Shown here: positions 1,796-15,321 of the stretch, in pieces
How the letters are laid out: every line of letters starts with the position of its first letter
Position numbering within the stretch: the stretch's first letter is position 1
NCBI RefSeq assembly: GCF_002770725.1
Contig: NZ_NQVN01000001.1
Span: 682,001 to 746,000, forward strand
DNA: 64,000 bases
Reading direction: 5' to 3'
Origin: Pleomorphomonas carboxyditropha
GTDB lineage: Bacteria > Pseudomonadota > Alphaproteobacteria > Rhizobiales > Pleomorphomonadaceae
Made by a program: the position numbers and the translations under genes
The notes under the pieces: model-generated
Database searches by the model: none
The model's input: only the letters and a program-made list of their open reading frames with translations
What the model was told of the DNA's origin: nothing

Positions 1796-3118
1796 ATGCT
1801 GACGCGATCCCTCATCGCCGGGCTTGCCCTGACCTTTTTGTCCAGTTCCTCGTTCGCGGCCACCGAGATCACCTGGTGGCACGCCATGGGCGGCGAGCTT
1901 GGCAAGAAGCTCGACGAAATCGTCGCCAAGTATAACGCCTCGCAGGACGACTATAAGGTGACCGCGGTCTACAAGGGCTCCTATCCCGAGACCATGACGG
2001 CCGCCATCGCCGCCTTCCGCGCCAAGCAGCAGCCCGACATCGTCCAGGTGTTCGAGGTCGGCACCGGCACCATGATGGCCGCCAAGGGCGCCATCTATCC
2101 GGTCTACGAGCTGATGAAGGACACCGGCACCGCCTTCGATCCCAAGGCGTTCCTGTCGGCCGTGGTCGGCTACTATACCGACGCCGACGGCAACATGCTG
2201 TCGATGCCGTTCAACTCGTCGACGCCGATCCTCTACTACAACAAGGACGTCTTTCAGAAGGCCGGGCTCGATCCCGAGCAGCCGCCCAAGACCTGGGAGG
2301 ACGTCGAGGCCTATTCGAAGAAGATCATGTCGTCGGGCGCCGCCAAGTGCGGCTTCACCACCGGCTGGATCTCCTGGGTGCAGCTCGAGAACTTCTCGGC
2401 CTGGCACAACAAGCCGATCGGCACCCTCCAGAACGGCATTGGCGGCATGGACGCCGAGCTGACCGTCAACGGCGACCTGCAGGTCCGTCACTGGACCAAC
2501 CTCAAGACGTGGCAGGACGAGGGTCTGTTCCAGTACGGCGGCCCGGGCGGCGGCAACGACGCGCCGCCGAAGTTCTACAGCCAGGAATGCGCCATCTACA
2601 TGAACTCGTCGGCCTCGCTGGCCGGCGTGGTCGCCAACGCCAAGGACTTCAAGGTCGGCTTCGGCATGCTGCCCTACTACTCCGACGTCGAGGGCGCGCC
2701 GCAGAACTCGATCATCGGCGGCGCCACGCTCTGGGTGCTGAGGGGCCACGGCGAGGCCGAATACAAGGGCGTCGCCAACTTCTTCACCTTCCTGTCCTCG
2801 CCGGAAGTGCAGGCCGACTGGCATCAGTATTCGGGCTATCTGCCGATCACCGAGGCCGCCTACAAGCTCGGCCAGGAGCAGGGCTTCTACGCCAACAATC
2901 CCGGCACCGACGTCGCCATCAAGCAGATCACGCTCAATCCGCCGACCGACAACTCCAAGGGCCTGCGCTTCGGCAACTACGTGCAGATCCGCGACGTGAT
3001 CGACGAGGAGTTCCAGAACCTGCTGGCCGGCAAGAAGACGCCGAAGGATGCGCTCGACTCGGTGGTAACGCGCGGCAACAAGCTGATCGCCGACTTCCGC
3101 GCCGCCGCCAACGGCTGA
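1796..3118 (+). CDS. ugpB: sn-Glycerol-3-phosphate ABC transporter, substrate-binding protein
   Basis: This is a periplasmic binding protein of 440 residues with a Sec signal peptide (MLTRSLIAGLALTFLSSSSF, then Ala-Ala). It captures glycerol-3-phosphate and glycerophosphodiesters and delivers them to UgpAE. It follows E. coli UgpB closely by eye: ITWWHAMGGELGKK near the mature N-terminus, then YKGSYPETM, EVGTGTMMAAKGAIYPVY, MPFNSSTPILYYNKD, DPEQPPKTWED and IQLENFSAW-type blocks, and GGATLWV. The length matches the family. It is the first gene of ugpB-A-E-C, 117 bp ahead of ugpA. A Pho-box-like motif upstream suggests induction by phosphate starvation. Confidence 0.95.
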   Translation: MLTRSLIAGLALTFLSSSSFAATEITWWHAMGGELGKKLDEIVAKYNASQDDYKVTAVYKGSYPETMTAAIAAFRAKQQPDIVQVFEVGTGTMMAAKGAIYPVYELMKDTGTAFDPKAFLSAVVGYYTDADGNMLSMPFNSSTPILYYNKDVFQKAGLDPEQPPKTWEDVEAYSKKIMSSGAAKCGFTTGWISWVQLENFSAWHNKPIGTLQNGIGGMDAELTVNGDLQVRHWTNLKTWQDEGLFQYGGPGGGNDAPPKFYSQECAIYMNSSASLAGVVANAKDFKVGFGMLPYYSDVEGAPQNSIIGGATLWVLRGHGEAEYKGVANFFTFLSSPEVQADWHQYSGYLPITEAAYKLGQEQGFYANNPGTDVAIKQITLNPPTDNSKGLRFGNYVQIRDVIDEEFQNLLAGKKTPKDALDSVVTRGNKLIADFRAAANG

Positions 3119-3235
3119 GCCGCCTGCCTTTCACCGAAATCCGGCGCCGACGGGCCGCTCCCGTCCGGCGCCGGTGTTCATGCGGGCGAGGGCCGAACCC
3201 CCGGCTCCGCCACGCTCCTCGATCCGGTTTCCTCC

Positions 3236-4120
3236 ATGCAGACCAAGCGCACCGTCTTCGGCAACCGCCTGCTGCCCTACGCGCTCCTCCTGCCGCAGCT
3301 CGCGGTGACCGTCGTGTTCTTCCTGTGGCCGGCGGCGCAGGCGGTCCTCCAGTCCTTTCAGCGCGAGGATGCCTTCGGCCTCTCCACGACCTGGGTGGGC
3401 CTCGCCAACTACGCCGATCTCCTCGACGAGCCGACCTATCTCAATTCCTTGAAGGTGACGGCGATCTTCGCGCCGGCGGTGACGGCCCTGTCGGTCGGTC
3501 TCGGCCTGGTGTTCGCCGTCAGCCTCGACCGGCTCGTTCGCGGCAGCCGCATCTACGCGGCGCTCCTGGTCTGGCCCTACGCGGTGGCGCCGGCCGTCGC
3601 CGGCATCATGTGGTGGTTCCTGTTCAATCCCACCATCGGCCTTCTGCCCTATCTTCTCGCCGCGGTCGGCTATCGCTGGGACCATGCGCTGCAACCGACC
3701 GACGCCATGATCCTGGTGGTGATCGCCGCCAGCTGGAAGCAGGTTTCCTACAATTTCCTGTTCTTCATGGCCGGCCTGCAGGCGATTCCGAAGTCGATGA
3801 TCGAGGCGGCGGCCATCGACGGCGCCGGGCCGGTGAAGCGGTTCTTCACCATCGTCCTGCCGCTCCTGTCGCCCACCACCTTCTTCCTTGCCGTCATCAA
3901 CCTCGTCTACGCGATGTTCGACACCTTCCCGGTGATCCACGCCACCACCGGCGGCAACCCGGCCCAGTCGACCAACATCCTCGTCTACAAGGTGTTCGTC
4001 GACGGCTTCATCGGCCTCAACCTCGGCTCGTCGGCGGCGCAGTCGGTGGTGCTGATGGCCATCGTCGTGGCGCTGACGGTGATCCAGTTCAAATGGGTCG
4101 AGCGCAAGGTAACCTATTGA
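3236..4120 (+). CDS. ugpA: sn-Glycerol-3-phosphate ABC transporter, permease UgpA
   Basis: This is an inner-membrane permease of 294 residues with about six hydrophobic segments and the binding-protein-dependent transport EAA loop (EAAAIDGAG, near residue 190) that docks on the UgpC ATPase. It pairs with UgpE to form the translocation channel. The N-terminal region ([20 protein letters not shown]) is typical of the MalF/UgpA class. The start ATG at 3236 follows a 117-bp spacer after ugpB with no obvious strong ribosome-binding site. It lies 10 bp ahead of ugpE. UgpA is preferred over a generic sugar permease because of the adjacent UgpB. Confidence 0.93.
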
Positions 4121-4130
4121 GGAAACGGCC

Positions 4131-4979
4131 ATGATCGACCGCCATCCCTGGCTCGACGCGCTTGCCCATGCCGTGCTGATCGCCGGCGTGGTGCTCGTCG
4201 CCTTTCCGGTCTACGTCGCCTTCATCGCCTCGACGCACGGCCCCCACGACTTCATGTCCGGACTGGTTCCCTTGCTGCCGGGCAGCGAAATGGTCGCCAA
4301 CTATCGCGCGATGCTGACCGACGGCCTGTCCAGTTCGGGCGCCCCGCCGCTCGGCGGCATGCTGTGGAACTCGCTGATGATGGCGCTGATCATCGCCTTC
4401 GGCAAGATCGCCATCTCCATCCTGTCGGCCTATGCCATCGTCTACTTCCGCTTTCCCTTCCGGGCGGTCGCCTTCTGGATGATCTTCGTCACGCTGATGC
4501 TGCCGGTCGAGGTGCGCATCGTGCCGACCTTCAAGGTGGTGGCCGATCTCGGCCTGCTCGACAGCTACGCCGGCCTCACCGTGCCGCTGATCGCCTCGGC
4601 GACCGCCACCTTCCTGTTCCGCCAGTTCTTCCTGACGGTGCCGGACGAACTGATGGAGGCGGCGCGCATCGACGGCGCCGGGCCGCTCAAGTTCTTCCGC
4701 GACGTGCTGCTGCCGCTGAGCCGCACCAACATCGCCGCGCTGTTCGTCATCCTCTTCATCTACGGCTGGAACCAGTATCTCTGGCCGCTGATGGTCACCA
4801 CCACGTCCAGCCACTACACCATCGTCATGGGCATCAAGCGCATGTCGGACGTCGCCGACGCACTGCCTCAGTGGAACGTCGTCATGACCACCGTGGTGCT
4901 GGCCATGCTGCCGCCGGTGGTCGTTGTGGTCGGCATGCAGCGGCTGTTCGTCAAGGGCCTCATCGAAACGGAGAAGTGA
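4131..4979 (+). CDS. ugpE: sn-Glycerol-3-phosphate ABC transporter, permease UgpE
   Basis: This is the second permease subunit, 282 residues, with six predicted membrane segments and an EAA loop ([17 protein letters not shown], near residue 180). It is of the MalG/UgpE class and partners UgpA. The blocks [14 protein letters not shown] and [14 protein letters not shown] are characteristic. The start ATG follows a GAGGAAACGG sequence. It ends 2 bp before the ugpC ATG (TGAGCATG), consistent with translational coupling. Confidence 0.93.
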
Positions 4980-4981
4980 GC

Positions 4982-6034
4982 ATGTCCGCCATCGAAATCG
5001 CCGCCGTGAGCAAGGTCTACGCCGGTGGTGTCCGAGCCGTTTCCGATGTCAGCCTGTCGATCGCCGACGGCGAGTTCATCGTGCTGGTCGGTCCGTCCGG
5101 CTGCGGCAAGTCGACGCTGCTCCGGATGATCGCCGGCCTCGAGACCATCACTTCGGGAACCGTGGCGATCGGCGGCCGGGTGGTCAACGAGGTCGATCCG
5201 GCGGCGCGCAACATCGCCATGGTGTTCCAGAACTACGCCCTCTACCCGCACATGAGCGTCTACGACAATCTCGCCTATGGCCTCCGCAATCGCGGCGTGC
5301 CCAAGGCGGATATCGACGCCCGCGTCGCCGAGGCGGCGCGCATGCTGGAGATCGCGCCGTTCCTCGATCGCAAGCCGAGGCAGCTTTCCGGCGGCCAGCG
5401 GCAGCGCGTCGCCATGGGACGGGCCATCGTCCGCAAGCCCGATGCCTTCCTGTTCGACGAGCCGCTCTCCAATCTCGACGCCAAGCTGCGCGTTTCGATG
5501 CGCGGCGAGATCCGCCAGTTGCAGCGGCGGCTCGGCGTCACCTCGGTCTATGTGACGCATGACCAGCTCGAGGCGATGACGCTGGCCGACCGCATCGTCG
5601 TCCTGAACGGCGGCCGCATCGAGCAGGTCGGCCGGCCGCTCGACGTCTATCACAGCCCGGCTTCGACCTTCGTCGCCAGCTTCATCGGCTCGCCGGCGAT
5701 GAACCTCGCTGACGCCGAGGTGGCGGGCGGTGCCGTGGCGATCGGCGGGCAGGTGGTGGCAAGCGGCGTCGGCGGCATCGCCGACGGCAAGCTGACCGTC
5801 GGCCTCAGGGCCGAGGACATTCTGCCGACGCCAAACGGCGCCGGCGTGCCCTTTGCCGTCCGCTATATCGAAGAGCTCGGCGCCACGCGGCTCGTGCACG
5901 GCTCGGTCGAGGGGCGTCATCTCACCATGGCGCTGTCGCCCGATCTGCCGCTCGCCGACGAGATCAGGATAACGGTCGCCGCCGACCGGCTGCACTTTTT
6001 CGACGGCGAAAGCGGCCGCCGGGTGGGACGGTGA
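4982..6034 (+). CDS. ugpC: sn-Glycerol-3-phosphate ABC transporter, ATP-binding protein
   Basis: This is a cytoplasmic ATPase of 350 residues. It shows Walker A (GPSGCGKST, near residue 36), Q-loop ([13 protein letters not shown]), signature ([14 protein letters not shown]), Walker B ([16 protein letters not shown]) and H-loop ([16 protein letters not shown]). The roughly 115-residue C-terminal regulatory OB-type domain is typical of the MalK/UgpC subfamily. It energises UgpAE. The ORF ends 6 bp from the converging parE-like gene with no clear terminator between them. Confidence 0.94.
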
Positions 6035-6040
6035 GGAAGC

Positions 6041-6364
6041 CTACGACCGCGCCGCAGGTTTTCCGGAAGTGCTCCATTCGATCTGGCGAAGATCGCGGGC
6101 GCCGTCGACCACGCGAACGATCCGCACGAGCATTTCGTCGATGCAATAAAGGACGAGCCAGCGCTCGCTGACGAGAACGCGGGCGGCTTCGGCGATTTCC
6201 GGTCGTACAGGCCCCATTTCGGGATGGTTTGCGAGCATCGAGACACGCCGCTCGATACGCTCGATGAGAGTATCGGCCATGGTCGCGCCGCTGGTCTCGG
6301 CAATCCAAAGCCACACGTCGAGCATGTCGGCGCGGGCTTGCCGAGAATAGACGACTTCGGCCAT
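6041..6364 (-). CDS. ParE/RelE-family toxin
   Basis: This 107-residue protein is of the ParE/RelE toxin superfamily. It starts MAEVVYSRQARADM, has the helix block ADTLIERIERRVSMLANHPEMG and ends on the beta-strand block WLVLYCIDEMLVRIVRVVDGARD, which is the usual ParE order. Family members poison DNA gyrase (ParE) or cleave mRNA (RelE); the HPEMGP and R-V-DGARD blocks favour ParE. It lies 3 bp downstream of its antitoxin gene in the normal antitoxin-toxin order. It converges on ugpC with only 6 bp between stop codons. Confidence 0.85.
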   Translation of the reverse strand: MAEVVYSRQARADMLDVWLWIAETSGATMADTLIERIERRVSMLANHPEMGPVRPEIAEAARVLVSERWLVLYCIDEMLVRIVRVVDGARDLRQIEWSTSGKPAARS

Positions 6365-6367
6365 GTC

Positions 6368-6628
6368 TCAGGCTTTCGCCGCCAGCCGCTTGCGGCCCTC
6401 GGCCTTGACCGTCTCGATATCCAGCGGCCCAAAATCGCCACTGCTGATGCCTTCGGCCCACGCCTGTTGCAGCCAGCGGAGCTTGTCTTCGTGCTGGTCG
6501 TGTTCTTCCAGCAGGCGAAGCGCTTCCCGCACTACCTCGCTGGAAGACGTGTACTGCCCGGATTCCACCTTGGCCCTGACGAAGCTCGCCAATTCGTCGG
6601 TCAGTGACACGCTGAGATTCACGGCCAA
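6368..6628 (-). CDS. ParD-like ribbon-helix-helix antitoxin
   Basis: This 86-residue protein has an N-terminal ribbon-helix-helix fold (NLSVSLTDELASFVRAKVES, then SSEVVREALRLLEE). The C-terminal tail (GISSGDFGPLDIETVKAEGR) resembles the toxin-wrapping tail of ParD proteins. It neutralises the toxin encoded 3 bp downstream and should repress its own promoter. A 9-bp-arm inverted repeat 31 bp upstream of its start is a candidate operator. The start ATG at 6628 has AGGAGA a few bases before it. Confidence 0.87.
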   Translation of the reverse strand: MAVNLSVSLTDELASFVRAKVESGQYTSSSEVVREALRLLEEHDQHEDKLRWLQQAWAEGISSGDFGPLDIETVKAEGRKRLAAKA

Positions 6629-6658
6629 TCTCCTTTTGTTCCACTCTGGGGTCGGCCA

Positions 6659-6687
6659 CGGAAAATGTCAAACCGCGTCATTTTCCG
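6659..6687. promoter_or_regulatory. Inverted repeat upstream of the parD-like gene
   Basis: CGGAAAATG (6659-6667) and CATTTTCCG (6679-6687) form perfect 9-bp arms around an 11-base spacer. GGCC flanks both arms with slight offset. The element lies between the 3' end of the isochorismatase-fold gene and the antitoxin start. It could be the ParD operator or part of a terminator for the upstream gene. There is no T-tract after the stem in either direction, which favours an operator. Confidence 0.5.
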
Positions 6688-6742
6688 TCGGCCTTCAAAC
6701 GCGACCGGCAGCGCGGTTGGTTATCTCCTGAAATGACATTCT

Positions 6743-7435
6743 TCATCCCGGCAGGTAGCCGATTACCTCGTCGGTGCTCATCACCGAGCAGTAGATCATG
6801 TTCATGATCTCGAGCTCGCGGTCGTGCAGCTCCAGGGTGCCGGCGGCGCAGGCATCCTCGGCGACGATGACGTCGAAGCTCTCGTCGGCGAGGCTGCGCA
6901 CCGTCGAGGCGACGCACTGGTCGGTGAAGATGCCGCAGCAGATCACATGGGTGATGCCGAGATTGGCCAGCACCAGGCGCAGATTGGTGCCGGTGAGGGC
7001 GCTGTCGGTGGTCTTGGTGACGACGATCTCGTCGCCTTCGGGCGCGATGGCCGCAACGATCTGCGACGGCGCCTCGTCCTTCGGCAGCAGAAGATTGTTC
7101 CAGCCCGGCTTCTTCTGGCTGAGCGAGCGGTCGCGGCCGTCGTGGCGCAGCGCCGCGATGCGGGCATAGAGCACGTCGAGGCCGCGGCCGCGGAAGGCGG
7201 CGAGCAGCCTTTGGATCGACGGGATCACCGTGCCGTGCATGCGCTCGTGGAACGGCGTCCAGGCGTGATAGCGGCTGAGGTCGTCGCCGGTGAGCGTCGC
7301 GGGATCCGGGCGGTCGAGATAGACGTTCTGAACGTCGATGACGAGCAGCGCCACCTTGCCGGCGGTGAGCACGGGATCTTCCGGCTCGGGGGCGCCGTCA
7401 TAATAAAAGGAACGACGGGCGGTCTTCCAGGTCAT
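6743..7435 (-). CDS. Isochorismatase-family cysteine hydrolase (peptidase locus)
   Basis: This 230-residue cytoplasmic alpha/beta hydrolase of the isochorismatase superfamily keeps the Asp-Lys-Cys catalytic triad: Asp in LLVIDVQNVYLD, Lys in IVVTKTTDSAL and Cys in CGIFTDQCVASTVRSLAD. The family includes isochorismatases, nicotinamidases, N-carbamoyl amidases and other amide hydrolases, so the substrate cannot be named. It lies 28 bp downstream of a proline-iminopeptidase-like gene on the same strand and is probably co-transcribed with it. That suggests it acts on a small amide handled by this locus. This is inference from context. Confidence 0.85.
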   Translation of the reverse strand: MTWKTARRSFYYDGAPEPEDPVLTAGKVALLVIDVQNVYLDRPDPATLTGDDLSRYHAWTPFHERMHGTVIPSIQRLLAAFRGRGLDVLYARIAALRHDGRDRSLSQKKPGWNNLLLPKDEAPSQIVAAIAPEGDEIVVTKTTDSALTGTNLRLVLANLGITHVICCGIFTDQCVASTVRSLADESFDVIVAEDACAAGTLELHDRELEIMNMIYCSVMSTDEVIGYLPG

Positions 7436-7463
7436 TGTCGGTCCTCGGCTTTGGCGTTGCCCT

Positions 7464-8363
7464 CTATCCCTCGACAGATTTCAGGAAATCGGAAACGGTC
7501 GCAAGGCATCTTGCTTCCTCTTCGACATGCGGCATGTGGCTCGACTGCTCGAACAGCACCCAGCGGATGCCCGGCACCTTCTCGACGTAGGGGCGCACCA
7601 CTTCCGGCGTCGCCTCGTCGTATTTGCCGGAGATCAGCAGCGCCGGCACCTCGATCAGCGGCAGGCGATCCTCGATCGTCCAGTCCTTCATGGTGCCGAT
7701 GACGTGGAATTCGGTAGGGCCGTTCATGTTGATGTAGACGGTGTTGTCGAGGTCCATCAGCTCGAAGGTGCGGCTCACCTCCTTCGGCCAGGGATCGAGG
7801 CGGCAGACGTGACGGTTGTAGAACACCCGCGACGCGGCGACATAGTCGGGATGGGTGATGGTGCCGGCCGCCTCGTGCTTCAGGAGTGTCGCCTGCACCT
7901 CGGGCGGCAGGGCCTCGCGCAGGCGATTGGCCTCGCTGACCCAGGTGTGCATGTTGGCCGGCGAATTGGCGATGACCAGCGCTTTCAGCCCCTTCGGCCG
8001 GCGCACGGCGTGCTCGGCGCCGAGCATGCCGCCCCAGGACTGGCCGAGGTAGGCGTAGCGATCGCCGATGCCGAGATGCGAGAGGAGGGCGTCGAGCTGG
8101 TCGAGGAACAGCCCGATCGTCCAGAAGTCCTTGCCTTTGTCGGGCAGGTGCGTCGAATTGCCGGAGCCGAGCTGGTCGTAATGGATGACGGCGCGGCCGT
8201 CGAGGTCGGCGATGCGCTTGAAGCTGTCGACATAGTCGTGCGTGCAGCCCGGACCGCCGTGGGCGACGATCAGCGGCAGTCGGGGCGACGACAGCGAGCC
8301 GCTGATCCGGTACCAGGTTTCATAGGCGCCGAAGGGCGCAAATCCTTCCACGACGTCGACCAC
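7464..8363 (-). CDS. Proline iminopeptidase-like alpha/beta hydrolase (leftward arm)
   Basis: This 299-residue protein is of peptidase family S33. Visible features are the HGGPG oxyanion motif ([12 protein letters not shown], near residue 36), the nucleophile elbow GQSWGGMLG (near residue 109), a helical cap, the acidic residue in [10 protein letters not shown] and the catalytic His in SSHMPHVEE near the C-terminus. The family removes N-terminal proline or hydrolyses amino-acid amides. It lies downstream of the luxR-type gene on the same strand. The 68-bp gap plus the luxR stop region carries a copy of the 20-bp motif also found before the rightward peptidase. Such peptidase genes are the standard neighbours of plant-responsive LuxR solos. 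Confidence 0.88.
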
Positions 8364-8425
8364 CGTTCACTCTCCGCGCTGCATATGTGTTAGGCAAAAA
8401 CATAGCGCGGCGAAAAGCTGAGCAG

Positions 8426-8445
8426 CAGCTATCAGAAGTTATAGG
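8426..8445 (-). promoter_or_regulatory. Candidate LuxR operator upstream of the leftward peptidase gene
   Basis: On the minus strand the sequence is CCTATAACTTCTGATAGCTG. Its inner part is an imperfect dyad with half-sites CTATAA and TGATAG around CTTC. It ends 62 bp before the start of the peptidase gene at 8363 and overlaps the stop codon of the luxR-type gene. It matches the motif at 9278-9297 at 18 of 20 positions, in the same orientation relative to the gene it precedes. lux boxes are 18-20-bp dyads at this kind of distance. Confidence 0.65.
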
Positions 8446-9214
8446 TCGGGGGTTCGTCGAGCAGCCGATAGTGGATGGCCCGCACCACGGCCTGGGTGCG
8501 GTTGCGGGCGCCGAGCTTGCGGATCGCCGAGTTGAGGTGCATCACCACCGTCGGCACCGAACGGTCGATGATGCGCGAGATTTCCTTGGCCGACAGACCG
8601 TCGGCGGAGTGGCGCAGGCACTGGCGCTCGCGGTCGGTGAGGCGCGGCATGGCGCCGACGCGGGCCGGCGCGTCGAAGGCGGCATAGGCCGTTTCGTGGA
8701 ACAGGTGAGCGAGGAGCCCGAAGTCGGCGATGGAGCCCTCGGCCGTGCGCTGGAAGTCGGCGCCGGCGCCGAAGCGGACGCCGGTCACCGTCGCATAATC
8801 GCCGCGCGGCAGGTGCACCGGCACGGTGACGCCGGAGGTCAGGCCGCGATCGCGGAGATAGCTCTCCACCGGCCGGCTGTCGTCCGAGAGATAGCGGCGG
8901 ATCGCCGTATCGGCGTCCCGGTCGTAGTTCCAGAAGAAGGGCGTCGAGGTCCGCAGGGCGAGTTGCTGCACCGGGTCGAAACGGAAGTAGCCGCGGCCGC
9001 ACCAGTATTCGTGCATGTCCTCCGGCACGTTCCTGAGCTTCAGGAGCGAGGGGATGTTCATGCTGCCGTCGACGTCGTAGGGCACCGGCGTATAGTCGTA
9101 GATGAGCGCGTCGAAGCCGAAGCCCTTCACCATGTCGAAGGCCCGGTCGATGCATCCTTCCAGGCTGGTCTCGGTGGCGAGCCGCTGTTTGATGGCGGCG
9201 ATATCGACGGGCAT
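8432..9214 (-). CDS. LuxR-family regulator, plant-responsive LuxR-solo type
   Basis: This 260-residue regulator has an N-terminal autoinducer-binding domain (about residues 15-170) and a C-terminal LuxR helix-turn-helix (about 190-245: LTDRERQCLRHSADGLSAKE). At the ligand pocket, Met67 and Trp71 stand where TraR has Trp57 and Tyr61. Asp80, Pro81 and Trp95 match TraR Asp70, Pro71 and Trp85. The Met/Trp pair is the known signature of the OryR/PsoR/NesR/PipR subfamily, which responds to plant-derived compounds instead of acyl-homoserine lactones. No luxI-type synthase lies nearby. The ATG at 9214 has GGAGAA 8 bp upstream. It probably controls both flanking peptidase genes. Confidence 0.9.
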   Translation of the reverse strand: MPVDIAAIKQRLATETSLEGCIDRAFDMVKGFGFDALIYDYTPVPYDVDGSMNIPSLLKLRNVPEDMHEYWCGRGYFRFDPVQQLALRTSTPFFWNYDRDADTAIRRYLSDDSRPVESYLRDRGLTSGVTVPVHLPRGDYATVTGVRFGAGADFQRTAEGSIADFGLLAHLFHETAYAAFDAPARVGAMPRLTDRERQCLRHSADGLSAKEISRIIDRSVPTVVMHLNSAIRKLGARNRTQAVVRAIHYRLLDEPPTYNF

Positions 9215-9277
9215 CTATAGCTTCTCCGGAGTGGAAAACCCCGCGGACGGTGGCTCGTGCTCCTCCATCTCCCGAAC

Positions 9278-9297
9278 CCTATCACTTCTAATAGCTG
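9278..9297 (+). promoter_or_regulatory. Candidate LuxR operator upstream of the rightward peptidase gene
   Basis: CCTATCACTTCTAATAGCTG is a dyad: CTATCA and TAATAG around CTTC. It ends 75 bp before the ATG at 9373 and lies in the 158-bp divergent promoter region between the luxR-type gene and the rightward peptidase/ABC operon. It matches the motif at 8426-8445 (minus strand) at 18 of 20 positions. Two near-identical sites at similar distance before the two peptidase genes are hard to explain by chance. Confidence 0.7.
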
Positions 9298-9372
9298 GTG
9301 TTGAGCGACAATTCATCCAAAATTTGGTCACGCTCAAATCGTGAGCTTTGACTCGGATTGCGGAGAACGGCC

Positions 9373-10263
9373 ATGTGGCGGGAAATCGCCCCTGATGCCA
9401 GGCATGTGGTGAAGGTCGACGGCTACAACGTCGTCGCCTACGAGTTCGGCACGGGCGACGAGGTGGTGTTGCTGGCCAACGGCGGCCCGGGTCTTCCCTG
9501 CGATTATCTGCGCGAGGCCCATTCCTGCCTGATCGATCAAGGCTATCGCGTCATCGCCTTCGACCAGCTCGGCACCGGCGCTTCCGATCGCCCAACCGAT
9601 CCGGCGCTCTGGACGATCGGCCGCTATGTCGAGGAGACCGAGACGGTGCGGCGGGCGCTCGGCCTCGGCAAGGTGCATTTCCTCGGCCATTCCTGGGGCG
9701 GCTGGCTCGCCATCGACTATGCGCTGACCTATCCGGAAGCGCTCAGGACGCTGATCCTCGAGGACACCGTCGCCGACATGCCGCACCTCATCGGCGAGCT
9801 CGAACGGTTGCGCGGCGCGCTCGGCGCCGAGACGGTGGCGATGATGCAGGCGCACGAGGCGGCCGGCACCATCGACCATCCCGAATACCTGGCGGCGATC
9901 ATGCTGCTCAACTACCGCCACGTCTGCCGCCTGAAGGAATGGCCGGCGCCGGTCAACCGCTCGCTGTCGGACTGGAACATGGGCCCCTACGGCACCATGC
10001 AAGGCCCCAACGAGTTCCTCTACATCGGCAATCTCAAGGATTGGAACCGAGTGCCCGATCTTCACAGGATCGCCGTGCCGACGCTGATCACCTGCGGCGA
10101 GCACGACGAACTGACGCCGGCCTGCGCATTGCGCATGAAGCTCAATCTGCCGGACGCCGAGCTCAGGGTTTTCGCCAATTCGAGCCATATGCCATTCTAC
10201 GAGAACCCGGGGGATTACTACCCGGCGCTCCTTGCCTTCCTCGGGAAACACAGCCAGCGATGA
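9373..10263 (+). CDS. Proline iminopeptidase-like alpha/beta hydrolase (rightward arm)
   Basis: This is a second S33-family hydrolase, 296 residues, paralogous to the leftward one. It shows NGGPGLPCDY (His of the usual HGGPG replaced by Asn), nucleophile elbow GHSWGGWLA, acidic residue in CGEHDELTP and catalytic His in SSHMPFYEN. The ATG at 9373 is chosen because GGAG lies 7 bp upstream; an in-frame TTG 15 bases earlier has no such support. It heads the operon with the peptide ABC transporter genes (next start 45 bp on). It likely processes imported peptides or amides in the cytoplasm. Confidence 0.88.
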   Translation: MWREIAPDARHVVKVDGYNVVAYEFGTGDEVVLLANGGPGLPCDYLREAHSCLIDQGYRVIAFDQLGTGASDRPTDPALWTIGRYVEETETVRRALGLGKVHFLGHSWGGWLAIDYALTYPEALRTLILEDTVADMPHLIGELERLRGALGAETVAMMQAHEAAGTIDHPEYLAAIMLLNYRHVCRLKEWPAPVNRSLSDWNMGPYGTMQGPNEFLYIGNLKDWNRVPDLHRIAVPTLITCGEHDELTPACALRMKLNLPDAELRVFANSSHMPFYENPGDYYPALLAFLGKHSQR

Positions 10264-10308
10264 CGTTCGCCCCAGCCATGACGGTCGTCGCCAAGTCCGG
10301 AAGCCACG

Positions 10309-11247
10309 ATGCACCGGTATAAGTTCGTCCTCTATCGCCCCTTGCAGTTCCTGCCGGTGCTGTTCGGCATCAGCCTGATCACGTTCATCCTGGTCCGCCT
10401 CATTCCCGGCGATCCGGCGCGGGTGCTGCTCGGCACGCGCTCCACGCCGTCGGCCATCGCCGCCATCCGCGCCCAATACGGCCTCGACCAGCCGATCTGG
10501 CTGCAATATTTCTATTTTCTCCAGAACCTCGCCCAGGGCGAGATGGGCAAGTCGATCCTCTACAAGATCGATGTGCTGAGGCTGATCGCCACCCGCATCG
10601 AGCCGACGCTGGCGCTGGTGCTCTCGGCGGTGCTGCTGTCGCTCGTCATCGCCGTGCCGCTCGCCTCGCTGGCGGCGCGCTCGAACGGCGGGCCGGCCGA
10701 CCATATCGTCCGCTTCGTCTCGACGTTCGGCATCGGCTTCCCGCCCTTCTGGCTGGCGCTGATGCTGATCATCTTCTTCTCGGTGCGGCTCGACCTGTTC
10801 CCGGTCTCCGGCTACGGCGAGACCGTCGCCGACAAGCTCTATCACCTGATCCTGCCGGCGCTGACCATCGCGCTGTCGCTGTCGACCGTGCTGATCCGCT
10901 CGCTCAGGACGGCGATGATCGCCGAACTGAAGGGCGACCTCGCCACCGCGGCCCGGGCGCGCGGCATGCCGGAAAGCATCGTCTTCTGGCGGCACGTGAT
11001 GCCCAACTCGCTGGTGCCGACCATCAACCTGCTGGCCGTCAACATCGGCTGGCTGATCGGCGGCACGGTCGTGGTGGAAAGCGTGTTCGCGCTGCCGGGC
11101 ATGGGCCAACTGCTGGTCCGCGCCATCTTCTCGCGCGATTACATGGTGGTGCAGGGCGTCGCCATGGTGTTCGCCTGCGCGACGGTGCTGGTGAACTTCA
11201 TCGCCGACATCGTCACCGTCGCCATCGACCCGAGGGTGAAGCAATGA
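10309..11247 (+). CDS. Dipeptide/oligopeptide ABC transporter permease (DppB type)
   Basis: This 312-residue inner-membrane permease has about six membrane segments, an N-terminal block typical of DppB/OppB (RPLQFLPVLFGISLITFILV, then RLIPGDP) and the EAA-type loop TAARARGMPESIVFWRHVMPN. It pairs with the next gene product to form the channel for di- or oligopeptides. The start ATG at 10309 has GGAAG about 6 bp upstream. Its last 4 bases overlap the next start (ATGA). Confidence 0.92.
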   Translation: MHRYKFVLYRPLQFLPVLFGISLITFILVRLIPGDPARVLLGTRSTPSAIAAIRAQYGLDQPIWLQYFYFLQNLAQGEMGKSILYKIDVLRLIATRIEPTLALVLSAVLLSLVIAVPLASLAARSNGGPADHIVRFVSTFGIGFPPFWLALMLIIFFSVRLDLFPVSGYGETVADKLYHLILPALTIALSLSTVLIRSLRTAMIAELKGDLATAARARGMPESIVFWRHVMPNSLVPTINLLAVNIGWLIGGTVVVESVFALPGMGQLLVRAIFSRDYMVVQGVAMVFACATVLVNFIADIVTVAIDPRVKQ

Positions 11248-12080
11248 CCGCCGCGCTCGCTCCGGCCTGGAAGGCTGTCCGGCGGCGGCCGACGCTGCTC
11301 GCCGGGCTGATCCTGCTCGCCATCTTCCTCTTCGTCGCTCTCATGGCGCCGGTGATCGCGCCCTACGATCCGATCCTGCAGAACGGCGACCTGCGCCTTC
11401 AGCCGCCGTCCTGGTCGCATCCCTTCGGCACCGACAACTTCGGCCGCGACATCTTCTCGCGCGTCATCTGGGGCACCCGCGTCGATTTGCAGATCGCGGT
11501 GATCGGCGTCGTCTTTCCCTTCCTGATCGGCACGGTGGTCGGCACGCTGGCCGGCTATCTCGGCGGCAAGGTCGACATCGTCTTCATGCGCGTCATCGAC
11601 ATCATCCTGGCCTTTCCCTTCCTGGTGCTGATGCTGTCGATCATCGCCATCCTCGGGCCGGGGCTCCAGAGCTTCTACATCGCCATGGCGCTGGTCGGCT
11701 GGGTGTCCTACGCCCGGCTGATCCGGGCGCAGATGCTGGTCTTGAAGACGGCCGATTATGCGACGGCGGCGCTCAGCCTGGGCTTTTCCGGCCCGCGCAT
11801 CATGTTCCGCCATCTGCTGCCCAACGCCATCGCCGGCTCGGTGGTGTTCTCGATGTCGGATTGCGTGCTGGTGCTGCTGTCGGGCGCCGCCATCAGCTAT
11901 CTCGGCCTCGGCGTGCAGCCGCCGGTCGCCGAGTGGGGCGTGATGGTGGCGGAGGGCCAGAGCTTCATCACCACCGCCTGGTGGATCACGCTGTTTCCCG
12001 GCCTGTCCATCGTGACGTTGGCCTTCGGCTTCTCGCTGACCGGCGACGGCCTCGGCGATCTCCTGGGGGTGCGCGAATGA
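11244..12080 (+). CDS. Dipeptide/oligopeptide ABC transporter permease (DppC type)
   Basis: This is the second permease, 278 residues. It has the DppC/OppC N-terminal membrane helix followed by HPFGTDNFGRDIFSRVIWGT, the EAA loop (YATAALSLGFSGPRIMFRHL) and the C-terminal LSYLGLG-type block (ISYLGLGVQPPVAEWG). It overlaps the preceding and following genes by 4 bases each, indicating tight translational coupling in the operon. Confidence 0.92.
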   Translation: MTAALAPAWKAVRRRPTLLAGLILLAIFLFVALMAPVIAPYDPILQNGDLRLQPPSWSHPFGTDNFGRDIFSRVIWGTRVDLQIAVIGVVFPFLIGTVVGTLAGYLGGKVDIVFMRVIDIILAFPFLVLMLSIIAILGPGLQSFYIAMALVGWVSYARLIRAQMLVLKTADYATAALSLGFSGPRIMFRHLLPNAIAGSVVFSMSDCVLVLLSGAAISYLGLGVQPPVAEWGVMVAEGQSFITTAWWITLFPGLSIVTLAFGFSLTGDGLGDLLGVRE

Positions 12081-13786
12081 GCGAGACGCTGCTCTCCGTC
12101 CGCAACCTCAGCGTCGTCTTCGCCGGCGAGGACGGTCCGCGCACGCTGATCGACGACCTGTCCTTCGACCTCGGCAAGGGCGAGATCCTCGGCCTGGTCG
12201 GCGAAAGCGGCTCGGGCAAGAGCCTCACCTGCCGTTCGCTGGTGCGGCTGATGCCGTCGCCCAACCTCACGATCGCCTCCGGCTCGGTGATGCTCGATGG
12301 CCGGGACCTCACCAAGGCGCCGGACAGCGACATCCGCGCGGTGCGCGGCCGCGACATCGGCATGATCTTCCAGAACCCGACCAGCCACCTCGACCCCCTG
12401 ATGCGCATCGGCGACCAGATCGCCGAGGGCATCCGCATCCATCGCGGCGTCGATGGCAAGGCGGCGAGGGCGGCGGCGCTGGACATCCTGGCGCAGGTGG
12501 GCTTCCCGCACCCGGCGCGGCAATACAACGGCTATCCGCACGAATTCTCCGGCGGCATGCGGCAGCGGGCGATGATCGGCGTCGCGCTTAGTTGCGACCC
12601 GCGCATCCTGATCGCCGACGAGCCGACGACGGCGCTCGACGTCACCATCCAGGCGCAGATCCTCCGGCTGCTGATGGACCTGAGGGAGAGCCGCGGCCTG
12701 TCGGTGATCCTGATCACCCACGACCTCGGCATCGTCGCCCAGACCTGTGACCGCATCGCCGTGCTCCGGCAGGGCCGGCTGCTGGAGATCGGCGACAAGC
12801 GCGACGTGCTCGGCCGGCCGCAACATCCCTACACGCGGAACCTGATCGCCTCGCATCCGTCGATGCCGGAACGGCAGGCGGCCTTCGTGCCGGCCCGCGA
12901 ACCGGCCATCCCGAAGGCGCGGCCGCTCGTCGAGATCGACGATCTTCACGTCCGCTTCCCGGTGACCGGCCGCAGCCTGTTCTCCGGCGGGCCGCGCGAG
13001 TTCTCGGCGGTGAAGGGCGTCAGCCTGCAGGTGATGCCCGGCGAGACGGTGGGCATCGTCGGCGAAAGCGGCTCGGGCAAGTCGACGCTGGCCCGGGCGC
13101 TGCTCGGCCTGACGCCGATCTCCGAGGGGCACGTCGCCTTCGACGGCGCCGACATCGTCACCGAGCGGGCGAAGGCGCTGAGAAAACTCCGCCGCGAGGC
13201 GGCGATGGTGTTCCAGGATCCCTACAACGCGCTCAATCCGCGCCTCACCATCGGCGCCATGCTGGCCGAGGTGCTCGCCGTGCAGGAAAGCGTGCCGAAG
13301 GAGCGGATACCGGCGCGCATCGGCGAGCTCCTCGATCTCGTCGGCCTCGAGCGCGAATTTGCCGGCCGCAAGCCGCTTTCCATGTCCGGCGGCCAATGCC
13401 AGCGCGCCGGCATCGCCCGGGCGCTCGCCGTCAATCCCAAGCTGATCGTCGCCGACGAGTGCGTCGCCGCGCTCGACGTCACCATCCAGGCGCAGATCGT
13501 CGATCTCTTCCGCGACCTCAAGCAGCGGCTCAACCTGACGCTGCTGTTCATCGCCCACGACCTCGCCATCGTCCGCAACCTCTGCGAACGGGTGGTGGTG
13601 ATGTACCACGGCGAGATCGTCGAGGAAGGACCGACCGACAAGGTGTTCGCCGCGCCGCGCGAGGCCTACACGCAAGCCTTGATCGGCGCCATTCCGGACA
13701 TTGATCCGGACAGGCCGCTTCTGTCTCCGAGAGGTGGAGACGATTTCGTCGAAGAAACGTCCGGGCTCGTCACGGGCGAAGCATGA
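12077..13786 (+). CDS. Dipeptide/oligopeptide ABC transporter, fused tandem ATP-binding protein
   Basis: This 569-residue protein carries two nucleotide-binding domains corresponding to DppD and DppF in one chain (GsiA/YejF arrangement). Domain 1 shows Walker A GESGSGKSLT, signature FSGGMRQRAMIGVAL and Walker B IADEPTTALD. Domain 2 (from about residue 280) shows Walker A GESGSGKSTLA, signature MSGGQCQRAGIARAL and Walker B IVADECVAALD. In domain 2 the usual Pro after the catalytic Glu is Cys, while the Glu itself is kept. It starts by a 4-base overlap with the DppC-type gene. Confidence 0.92.
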   Translation: MSETLLSVRNLSVVFAGEDGPRTLIDDLSFDLGKGEILGLVGESGSGKSLTCRSLVRLMPSPNLTIASGSVMLDGRDLTKAPDSDIRAVRGRDIGMIFQNPTSHLDPLMRIGDQIAEGIRIHRGVDGKAARAAALDILAQVGFPHPARQYNGYPHEFSGGMRQRAMIGVALSCDPRILIADEPTTALDVTIQAQILRLLMDLRESRGLSVILITHDLGIVAQTCDRIAVLRQGRLLEIGDKRDVLGRPQHPYTRNLIASHPSMPERQAAFVPAREPAIPKARPLVEIDDLHVRFPVTGRSLFSGGPREFSAVKGVSLQVMPGETVGIVGESGSGKSTLARALLGLTPISEGHVAFDGADIVTERAKALRKLRREAAMVFQDPYNALNPRLTIGAMLAEVLAVQESVPKERIPARIGELLDLVGLEREFAGRKPLSMSGGQCQRAGIARALAVNPKLIVADECVAALDVTIQAQIVDLFRDLKQRLNLTLLFIAHDLAIVRNLCERVVVMYHGEIVEEGPTDKVFAAPREAYTQALIGAIPDIDPDRPLLSPRGGDDFVEETSGLVTGEA

Positions 13787-13806
13787 TAACCAGAAGGGAA
13801 CTCGAC

Positions 13807-15321
13807 ATGACCGCAAAGTGGACCAAACTCAGCGTGGCGACCGTTCTCGCCACCCTCGTCTTCGGGGCCTCGATCGCCGAGGCCGCCGGCGTGCTGACCA
13901 TCGGCCGCCGCGAGGACGGCACGACCTTCGATCCGATCAAGACCGCCCAGAACGTCGACAACTGGGTGTTCTCCAACGTGTTCGACGTGCTGGTGCGCGT
14001 CGACAAGTCCGGCACCAAGCTGATCCCCGGCCTCGCCGAAAGCTGGACCGTTTCCGACGACGGGCTGACCTATACCTTCAAGCTGCGCGACGCCAAGTTC
14101 TCCAACGGCGATCCGGTGACCGCCGACGATGCCGCCTTCTCCATCCTGCGCATCCGCGACAACCCGGGCTCGCTGTGGGCCGACAGCTACAAGATCGTCG
14201 ACACGGCCACCGCCGCCGATCCGAAGACGCTGGTCATCAAGCTGACCGGCCCGTCGGCGCCCTTCCTGTCGTCGCTGGCGCTGCCCAACGTGTCGGTGCT
14301 GCCCAAGAAGGTGGTCGAGGACATGGGCGAGGATGCCTTCGGCGAGGCGCCGATCGGCTCCGGCGCCTTCGCCGTCAAGGAGTGGCGGCGTGGCGACCGC
14401 GTCATCCTGGTCAAGAATCCCGAATACTGGGATGCCGCCAGCGTCAGCCTCGACGGCGTCGAGTGGATCTCCATTCCCGACGACAACACCCGCATGCTGA
14501 AGGTGCAGGCCGGCGAGATCGACACCGCCATCTTCGTGCCGTTCTCGCGCATCGCCGAGCTCCAGAAGGATCCCAACCTCAAGATCCACCTGGACACCTC
14601 GACGCGCGAGGATCACCTGCTGATCAACCACGAGCACGGCGCGCTCGCCAAGAAGGAAGTGCGCCAGGCCCTCGACATGGCGGTCGACAAGAAGGCGATT
14701 GTTGACGCGGTGACCTTCGGCCTCGGCGAGGTCGCCTATTCCTACATTCCGAAGGGTGCCCTCTACCACTACGCCGACAACCTGCAGCGGCCCTATGACC
14801 CGGAGAAGGCCAAGGCCATGCTGGCGGAGGCCGGCGCCGCCGACCTCAAGCTCAACTATGTGGTCAATGCCGGCGACGAGGTCGACGAGCAGATCGCCGT
14901 CCTGTTGCAACAGCAGCTCGCCAAGGCCGGCGTCACCGTCGATCTCCAGAAGGTCGACCCCAGCCAGAGTTGGGACATGCTGATCGCCGGCGACTACGAC
15001 ATATCCGTGATGTACTGGACCAACGACGTGCTGGATCCGGACCAGAAGACCACCTTCGTCCTCGGCCACGACAGCAACATGAACTACATGACCCGCTACA
15101 ACAATCCGGCGGTCAAGGATCTGGTCGCCGCGGCGCGCGTCGAGATGGATCCCGTGAAGCGCGAGCAGATGTACGTCGACCTCCAGAAGATGGCCAAGGA
15201 CGACGTCAACTGGATCGACCTCTACTACAGCCCCTACCGCAACGTGTCGCGGGCCAACATCGAGAATTTCGACCAGAACCCGCTCGGCCGCTTCTTCCTG
15301 GAAGAAACCAAGAAGAACTGA
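13807..15321 (+). CDS. Peptide ABC transporter substrate-binding protein (family 5)
   Basis: This 504-residue periplasmic binding protein of the DppA/OppA type has a signal peptide (KLSVATVLATLVFGASIAEA). Family hallmarks are LIPGLAESWTVSDDGLTYTF, LRDAKFSNGDPVTADD, NPEYWDA and VRQALDMAVDKKAI. The ATG at 13807 is chosen because it has AGAAGGGA 6-7 bp upstream and gives a clean signal peptide; an in-frame ATG at 13783 would add eight polar residues. It is the last gene of the peptidase-transporter operon, followed by a strong terminator. Confidence 0.9.
   Translation: MTAKWTKLSVATVLATLVFGASIAEAAGVLTIGRREDGTTFDPIKTAQNVDNWVFSNVFDVLVRVDKSGTKLIPGLAESWTVSDDGLTYTFKLRDAKFSNGDPVTADDAAFSILRIRDNPGSLWADSYKIVDTATAADPKTLVIKLTGPSAPFLSSLALPNVSVLPKKVVEDMGEDAFGEAPIGSGAFAVKEWRRGDRVILVKNPEYWDAASVSLDGVEWISIPDDNTRMLKVQAGEIDTAIFVPFSRIAELQKDPNLKIHLDTSTREDHLLINHEHGALAKKEVRQALDMAVDKKAIVDAVTFGLGEVAYSYIPKGALYHYADNLQRPYDPEKAKAMLAEAGAADLKLNYVVNAGDEVDEQIAVLLQQQLAKAGVTVDLQKVDPSQSWDMLIAGDYDISVMYWTNDVLDPDQKTTFVLGHDSNMNYMTRYNNPAVKDLVAAARVEMDPVKREQMYVDLQKMAKDDVNWIDLYYSPYRNVSRANIENFDQNPLGRFFLEETKKN

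Follow-up and report, generated by a model that had tools for sequence, protein, structure and literature searches.

In Pseudomonas sp. GM79, the LuxR regulator PipR is encoded between one peptidase gene (pipA) and a group made up of a second peptidase gene and ABC transporter genes (aapA-F). The available text of the report on this system gives two dyad sites, at -71.5 of pipA and at -91.5 of aapA, and mutation of the pipA dyad at -71.5 showed that it is needed for PipR-dependent activation (PMC4981722). In Xanthomonas, the available sections of the work on OryR, XccR and XocR describe a 20-bp inverted repeat in the pip promoter and activation of pip (PMC4399327, PMC4471428, PMC7683790). NesR of Sinorhizobium meliloti is flanked by peptidase genes (PMC10134790), and the published NesR work, in its available portions, deals with stress and nodulation competition and describes no box (PMC5977203, PMC10134790).

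The locus analysed here lies in a 64-kb stretch of Pleomorphomonas DNA (the window), and its genes stand in the same order as in GM79: a peptidase gene with an ABC transporter, luxR, and a peptidase gene. GM79 was compared by its published description and the Xanthomonas systems were likened by theirs. The two boxes of the window match the GM79 sites in position, whereas the available text for GM79 reports that the aapA site overlaps the 5' end of pipR (PMC4981722) and the right box of the window is intergenic. The window luxR has a peptidase gene on each side, as nesR does, and the S. meliloti locus in our set (L086) carries both boxes. The substrate-binding protein of the window is of the AapF type, as in the PipR-AapF module, and an Opp/Nik-type transporter and an aapA-like peptidase gene are present with it. 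The ligand of the PipR-AapF module is HEHEAA, an ethanolamine derivative.

The window module is a LuxR system of the PipR/OryR/NesR type. The system was already known, and pip boxes have been published for Pseudomonas and Xanthomonas, as far as the available texts go; what the present analysis adds is the breadth and strictness of the conservation, the pattern of two boxes, and the overlap of one box with the luxR stop codon. We read the two motifs as paired operators (pip boxes, a subtype of lux box) of the LuxR encoded between them, and we put the probability of this reading, with the scheme set out below, at about 0.9. The computations establish where the boxes are, how they are conserved and spaced, that they are linked to luxR as well as to the target operons, and to which families the proteins belong.

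Genes of the module

The luxR gene (8432..9214, minus strand) encodes a LuxR solo of the type found in plant-associated bacteria. The protein has an Autoind_bind domain (PF03472, 102.5 bits) followed by a GerE domain (PF00196, 51.4 bits), both above the Pfam cut-offs. Its M67 and W71, which we placed by eye from their distance to a D-P pair, stand at the positions of TraR W57 and Y61. M and W in place of these two residues are given as the mark of plant-associated LuxR solos in the available text of two papers (PMC10134790, PMC4399327), and the same changes, W57M and Y61W, are described for XocR in the Xanthomonas work (PMC4399327, PMC4471428, PMC7683790). All 86 of the loci that we aligned have this M/W signature.

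There is no cognate luxI beside luxR, and the only LuxI-family match of the genome is on another contig (G000:C7:57991-58536, locus L186). This gene adjoins a gene for a TrbB-like ATPase (recognized as TrbB by eye) and therefore looks like a plasmid-transfer synthase, which suggests a conjugative plasmid under quorum-sensing control.

Both neighbours of luxR encode hydrolases of the proline iminopeptidase family, with profile scores of 260.6 and 262.3 bits against a TIGR01250 (NCBIfam) cut-off of 167.65 bits. The left one is pipA-like (7464..8363, minus strand) and the right one aapA-like (9373..10263, plus strand); they are the presumed left and right targets. Four other loci (L181, L182, L187 and L193) carry two tandem copies of the right peptidase gene, one 73-82% and the other 53-57% identical to that of the window.

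Downstream of the left peptidase gene, and probably on the same transcript, is a gene for an isochorismatase-family amidohydrolase (6743..7435, minus strand), which might degrade an amide signal. It is found in nine of 100 loci, some of which are incomplete, and in one of ten loci added later (L194). With a gene this rare, the system in general is unlikely to include a dedicated amidase partner.

On the plus strand, the right peptidase gene is followed by genes for the permeases B (10309..11247) and C (11244..12080) of a peptide/nickel-type ABC transporter, a fused double ATPase of the same transporter (12077..13786, starting at an in-frame ATG), and a substrate-binding protein (13783..15321). 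Among solved structures the last of these best matches AapF (7kz8), the substrate-binding protein of the PipR system, with a score of 794.8 bits across residues 33-512; the runner-up has 170 bits.

Two other groups of genes lie just to the left of the module, both recognized by eye. Two short adjoining open reading frames (6041-6671, minus strand) resemble a toxin-antitoxin pair of the RelE/ParE-ParD type, and a second ABC transporter, of the sugar or glycerol-3-phosphate type, is encoded at 1796-6034 on the plus strand, just outside the module.

Two boxes and their conservation

The first-pass annotation had pointed to two operator-like 20-mers, CCTATAACTTCTGATAGCTG (8426-8445, minus strand) and CCTATCACTTCTAATAGCTG (9278-9297, plus strand). 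We found both exactly at these coordinates, agreeing at 18 of 20 positions as it had said. Its other measurements were reproduced too: 62 bases separate the left 20-mer from the GTG start of the left peptidase gene (8363, minus strand) and 75 bases separate the right one from the ATG of the right peptidase gene (9373), the inner part is a dyad, CTAT-N-A-N4-T-N-ATAG, present in both 20-mers, and the TGA stop of luxR (8434-8432, minus strand) falls within the left 20-mer. When the whole 64 kb was scanned with up to three mismatches, the two 20-mers were the sole matches, and 100 dinucleotide shuffles gave none, which puts the pair far outside what chance would produce. A search of positions 6000-12000 for direct repeats only did not include the pair among the repeats listed, because the copies are on opposite strands.

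We searched genome contigs with the LuxR protein and used the best 80 of 136 loci of relatives. Eight of these 80, from Pleomorphomonas and two MAGs, encode LuxR proteins that are 88-95% identical to that of the window, and the rest, from rhizobia, are 65-70% identical. Every one of the best 80 of the 136 has exactly two perfect dyads (80/80), and none has a further one with a single mismatch. For the alignments below we used a set of 86 rows, consisting of the window, these best 80 of 136 and five more loci (L110-L113 and L118); L112 repeats L098, so the 86 rows hold 85 distinct stretches. The set has 23 distinct 22-nt boxes, and since the rows are related, counts over them are not counts of independent events.

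Across the 86 loci conservation extends beyond the 20 bp. The columns CCTAT.A.T..T.ATAG.T are invariant in both copies in all 86 rows. The unit is asymmetric, with a downstream end that hardly varies (CTGC in 85 left copies out of 86, CTGG in 84 right ones out of 86) and an upstream end that differs from it and is less strictly kept. Because of this asymmetry each box has a polarity. The earlier statement that each motif is oriented toward its own peptidase gene holds well beyond the window, as the polarity points that way in all 86 rows.

We therefore give the boxes as 22 nt. The left operator, ACCTATAACTTCTGATAGCTGC (8425..8446, minus strand), overlaps the final codons and the stop of luxR and faces the left peptidase gene, and the right operator, CCCTATCACTTCTAATAGCTGG (9277..9298, plus strand), is in the divergent intergenic region and faces the right peptidase gene. 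The motif rule for lux and pip boxes, in the available text of one source, is a dyad of about 20 bp with CT(N12)AG (PMC4338825). Both boxes follow it upstream of their target genes, as CT-ATAACTTCTGAT-AG and CT-ATCACTTCTAAT-AG.

Spacing, predicted promoters and the luxR stop codon

In the window the dyad centres are 73.5 nt (left) and 86.5 nt (right) before the start codons of the peptidase genes, and these distances are close to fixed across the 86 rows. From the centre of the right box to residue 1 of the right peptidase there are 86-88 nt (rounded) in 76 of 86 rows, with a range of 76-90. From the centre of the left box to residue 1 of the left peptidase there are 72-78 nt in 82 of 86, and the others have 68, 80, 90 and 146. 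Three loci are particularly informative on the left side (L097, L111 and L113): luxR ends 28 to 130 nt before the centre of the left box, yet the distance from the box to the peptidase gene remains at 74-80 nt. By comparison, residue 1 of LuxR lies anywhere from 32 to 74 nt away from the centre of the right box in the 86 loci. The near-fixed spacing to the peptidase genes and the variable spacing to luxR tie the boxes to the peptidase promoters.

This bears on a different use of the same operators, in which the boxes belong to this LuxR but the right one serves mainly to regulate luxR itself, the left peptidase gene is reached by read-through, and the left box is minor. The arrangement of the genes would allow it: the right box stands in the region that separates luxR from the right peptidase gene. 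In addition, luxR and the left peptidase gene run in the same direction, and a scan found no terminator-like site in the short gap between them. However, it is the distance to the peptidase gene and not the distance to luxR that is held nearly constant, and in 37 of 86 rows the box centre is 38-40 nt before residue 1 of LuxR, which is too close for a class II site that serves luxR. Read-through also fits poorly with a left box that has its own conserved -10 (below) and that is absent in the three intact loci without a left peptidase gene. We consider this use of the boxes improbable, and autoregulation of luxR as their main role is rejected on the spacing.

The first-pass annotation had argued that the leftward arm should have a promoter of its own. 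This is borne out by a conserved -10-like element at a fixed distance from the left box, together with the loss of that box in the three loci that lack the left peptidase gene. In the left arm, 82 of 86 rows have a TANNNT that starts at core +40, and its first three positions, TAT, are invariant; in the window the candidate -10 is TATGTT (8399..8404, minus strand), 40-45 nt after the start of the box core, proposed from this conservation. In six more distant loci, TANNNT was found at +39 to +41 in 10 of 12 promoters that we picked by hand with a weight matrix, or in 9 of 10 once L183 is dropped as a repeat of L113 in the 86-row set.

The right arm has a conserved A-rich block at the same offset, with TANNNT at +39 to +41 in two of 86 rows and at +34 in 37, and the putative -10 region of the window there, CAAAATT (9318..9324, plus strand), is more tentative. 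A scan for consensus sigma-70 promoters found no site at either predicted promoter. We keep the -10 elements despite this result because they rest on conservation.

The CTGC/CTGG end of the boxes sits where a -35 would be, and the conserved left -10-like element implies a box centre at about -44. From this placement the asymmetric end is probably a portion of the -35. Activation from a site that overlaps the -35 is described, for lux boxes with their centre at -42.5, in the available text of one paper (PMC4471428).

Taken as paired operators of the LuxR between them, the boxes may work as follows. The ABC transporter encoded in the right arm would bring in a small plant-derived compound that binds LuxR, and a LuxR dimer would then bind the 16-bp dyad of each box. 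Each box would overlap the -35 of a promoter in which the -10 starts 40 nt downstream of the first base of the core, so that LuxR could recruit RNA polymerase from near -44, as in class II activation. The left box would drive the left peptidase gene, and the right box would drive the right peptidase gene and the ABC transporter. Feedback, both positive and negative, would then arise from import of the signal and from its turnover by the peptidases and the amidase.

Of the 86 loci, 83 have a left operator that overlaps the luxR stop codon, and the overlap in the window is therefore not a chance feature of this genome. The first base of the stop is about 2 nt beyond the box centre in 79 of the 86 rows and about 4 nt ahead of it in four others. 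The commonest reading frame across the left box is ..TAT AAC TT(C/G) TGA TAG. At core position 11, all 86 left copies have G or A, which keeps the stop in frame, and 74 of the 86 noncoding right copies have T.

A recurrent overlap of this kind could mean that the left copy is kept mainly because it encodes the C-terminus of LuxR, with its likeness to the right copy being secondary. The overlap with the last codons and the stop is the point in its favour. Against it, the right copy is noncoding and yet equally conserved, and in the three loci where luxR ends upstream the box is intact at its usual distance from the peptidase gene. The encoded tail varies (YNF, YNL, YYL, YHL or YKL, that is N, Y, H or K and then F or L) while the dyad stays, and nearly all of the more distant LuxR homologues end before this tail, with L117 an exception in length. 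We conclude from the variable tail, the constant dyad and the earlier ends that it is the DNA site that dictates the end of the protein and not the reverse. We give next to no credence to the idea that coding constraint accounts for the left box, and reject it on the three loci with the earlier luxR end and on the variable tail residues.

We did not find the overlap with the luxR stop described in the available text of the literature that we searched, in which supplementary tables may already list the rhizobial box. A figure legend for GM79 gives the pipA dyad with the pipR stop marked by a box, and the available text of that paper states no overlap between them (PMC4981722); another paper, in its available part, excludes LuxR solos (PMC13133039). 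For the window type of locus, it is conceivable, if rather unlikely, that the overlap does more than pack the genes compactly: bound LuxR may block or slow the polymerase that is finishing luxR, transcription of luxR may displace LuxR from the promoter of the peptidase gene, and the overlap would then act as a feedback timer.

Linkage to luxR and reach of the boxes

We looked for the 20-mer pattern, with one mismatch allowed and a reversed pattern as control, in a sample of 120 genomes of relatives. The pattern was present in 13 genomes with 26 matches, two per genome with one on each strand and all beside luxR, and the control had 0 matches. luxR itself was found in 14 of the genomes, including all 13 with the pattern (Fisher 1.6e-16, which ignores relatedness), and none of the 106 genomes of this sample without luxR had the pattern. 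A second sample consisted of 151 genomes of family f4, which we take to be Rhizobiaceae (one f4 locus is identical to a contig of Rhizobium sp. CF122). Here 13 genomes had the pattern, with 21 matches, all beside luxR, and the reversed control had two matches; luxR was present in 18 genomes, including all 13 (Fisher 4.3e-15, again ignoring relatedness), and absent together with the pattern in the remaining 133. Two genomes, G043 and the luxR-less G051, are common to both samples, so that 45 of the 47 pattern matches are distinct.

The luxR genomes without the pattern had diverged boxes. The fourteenth relative (G1141) has two diverged boxes at its locus (L174), and the five f4 genomes have a diverged box before the peptidase operon (L187-L189) or before the transporter operon (L190 and L191). 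The ten loci added later, these five f4 loci among them, all have a box-like site before a peptidase or transporter operon with a weight-matrix score above 15, and no position in 62.5 kb of background from the window scores as high. L192 and L194-L196 have a weaker second box, and L193 has none. In L182 the left box is poor, in L117 (Nitratireductor, LuxR 40% identical) there is only a weak candidate box, and in L119 the boxes were missed by the weight matrix and seen by eye.

The box at the 3' end of luxR is lost together with the left peptidase gene. All three intact loci without that gene (L187, L189 and L193) also lack this box; L188 was left out of the count, as its locus ends at a contig end. 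The boxes of L190 and L191 precede the transporter operon; before the divergent peptidase gene there is only a weak box in L191 and none that exceeds the threshold in L190. These two and L117 have a second layout, with a substrate-binding or permease operon 3' of luxR and the peptidase gene on the other side.

It could be that the boxes are bound by another regulator, such as a paralogous LuxR or some other dyad-binding factor, and not by the LuxR encoded between them. Cross-recognition is conceivable, as LasR can activate a Xanthomonas pip promoter in E. coli according to the available text of one report (PMC4471428). A separate regulator is difficult to reconcile with the complete absence of the pattern from the luxR-less genomes of both samples. 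It is also difficult to reconcile with the luxR entries, where 27 of 32 have boxes by pattern or weight matrix (13/14, 13/18 and G1141, with G043 counted twice) and the other five have diverged ones. We regard it as highly improbable. The boxes are almost certainly operators of the neighbouring LuxR, each with its own promoter, to judge from these comparisons. The operator reading of the first-pass annotation is thus upheld on comparative grounds, by co-occurrence with luxR, near-fixed spacing to the peptidase genes, the left -10, and loss of the left box with the left peptidase gene.

We also examined loci of family f35 and genus g83, which we take to be Pseudomonadaceae and Pseudomonas, and plasmids of Klebsiella and Rahnella. 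The gene order is the same in the f35/g83 loci and on the Klebsiella plasmid. On the Rahnella plasmid (L116) it is kept as well, except that the right peptidase gene is missing, and the box there stands before the permease operon. At the equivalent places all of them have dyads (those of Klebsiella seen by eye) in which one arm or both contain CTAG, whereas the arms in the window are CTAT..ATAG. In the f35/g83 loci the left box lies past the luxR stop, unlike the overlap in the window-type loci.

The g83 LuxR proteins (L175, L176, L177 and L185) have W and not M at the TraR-57 position (W/W), and the HLN of the DNA-binding domain reads HLA in two aligned examples. Four LuxR homologues without pip neighbours (L178, L179, L180 and L184) have no box, and in ten f35/g412 luxR loci, four of which were inspected for the absence of pip, we found no dyad with up to two mismatches in about 3.7 kb. 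The same four homologues (g412, family f35) keep the M/W signature though pip neighbours and pip box are absent.

Many copies at unrelated sites of the genome had been named beforehand as an outcome that would speak against operators. This was not what we saw: a scan of the genome (5,884,991 bases in 80 contigs) gave fewer matches than its control. The dyad CTATNANNNNTNATAG is perfect only at the two boxes, and ten more sites have one mismatch, for 24 strand-hits against 62 for the reversed control. With the full 16-mer, which is more specific, there were 28 matches (two exact, one with two mismatches and 25 with three) against 65 for the reversed control. We thus looked for a regulon beyond the locus with both the dyad and the 16-mer across the genome and found none, with match counts below control. 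XocR, as the available text has it, has been proposed to act also on unlinked genes, whereas this genome has only the two perfect dyads.

The 22-nt consensus and the pattern of two boxes per genome predict a strictly local regulon. This bears on the question of whether such regulators directly control distant virulence or symbiosis genes. The left box is a clean natural case of a single stretch of DNA that codes for the end of a regulator and also holds the presumed binding site of that regulator. Pleomorphomonas are plant-associated nitrogen fixers, and the finding places a plant-sensing circuit of the PipR/OryR type, with an explicit operator and promoter architecture, in Pleomorphomonas and across the rhizobia.
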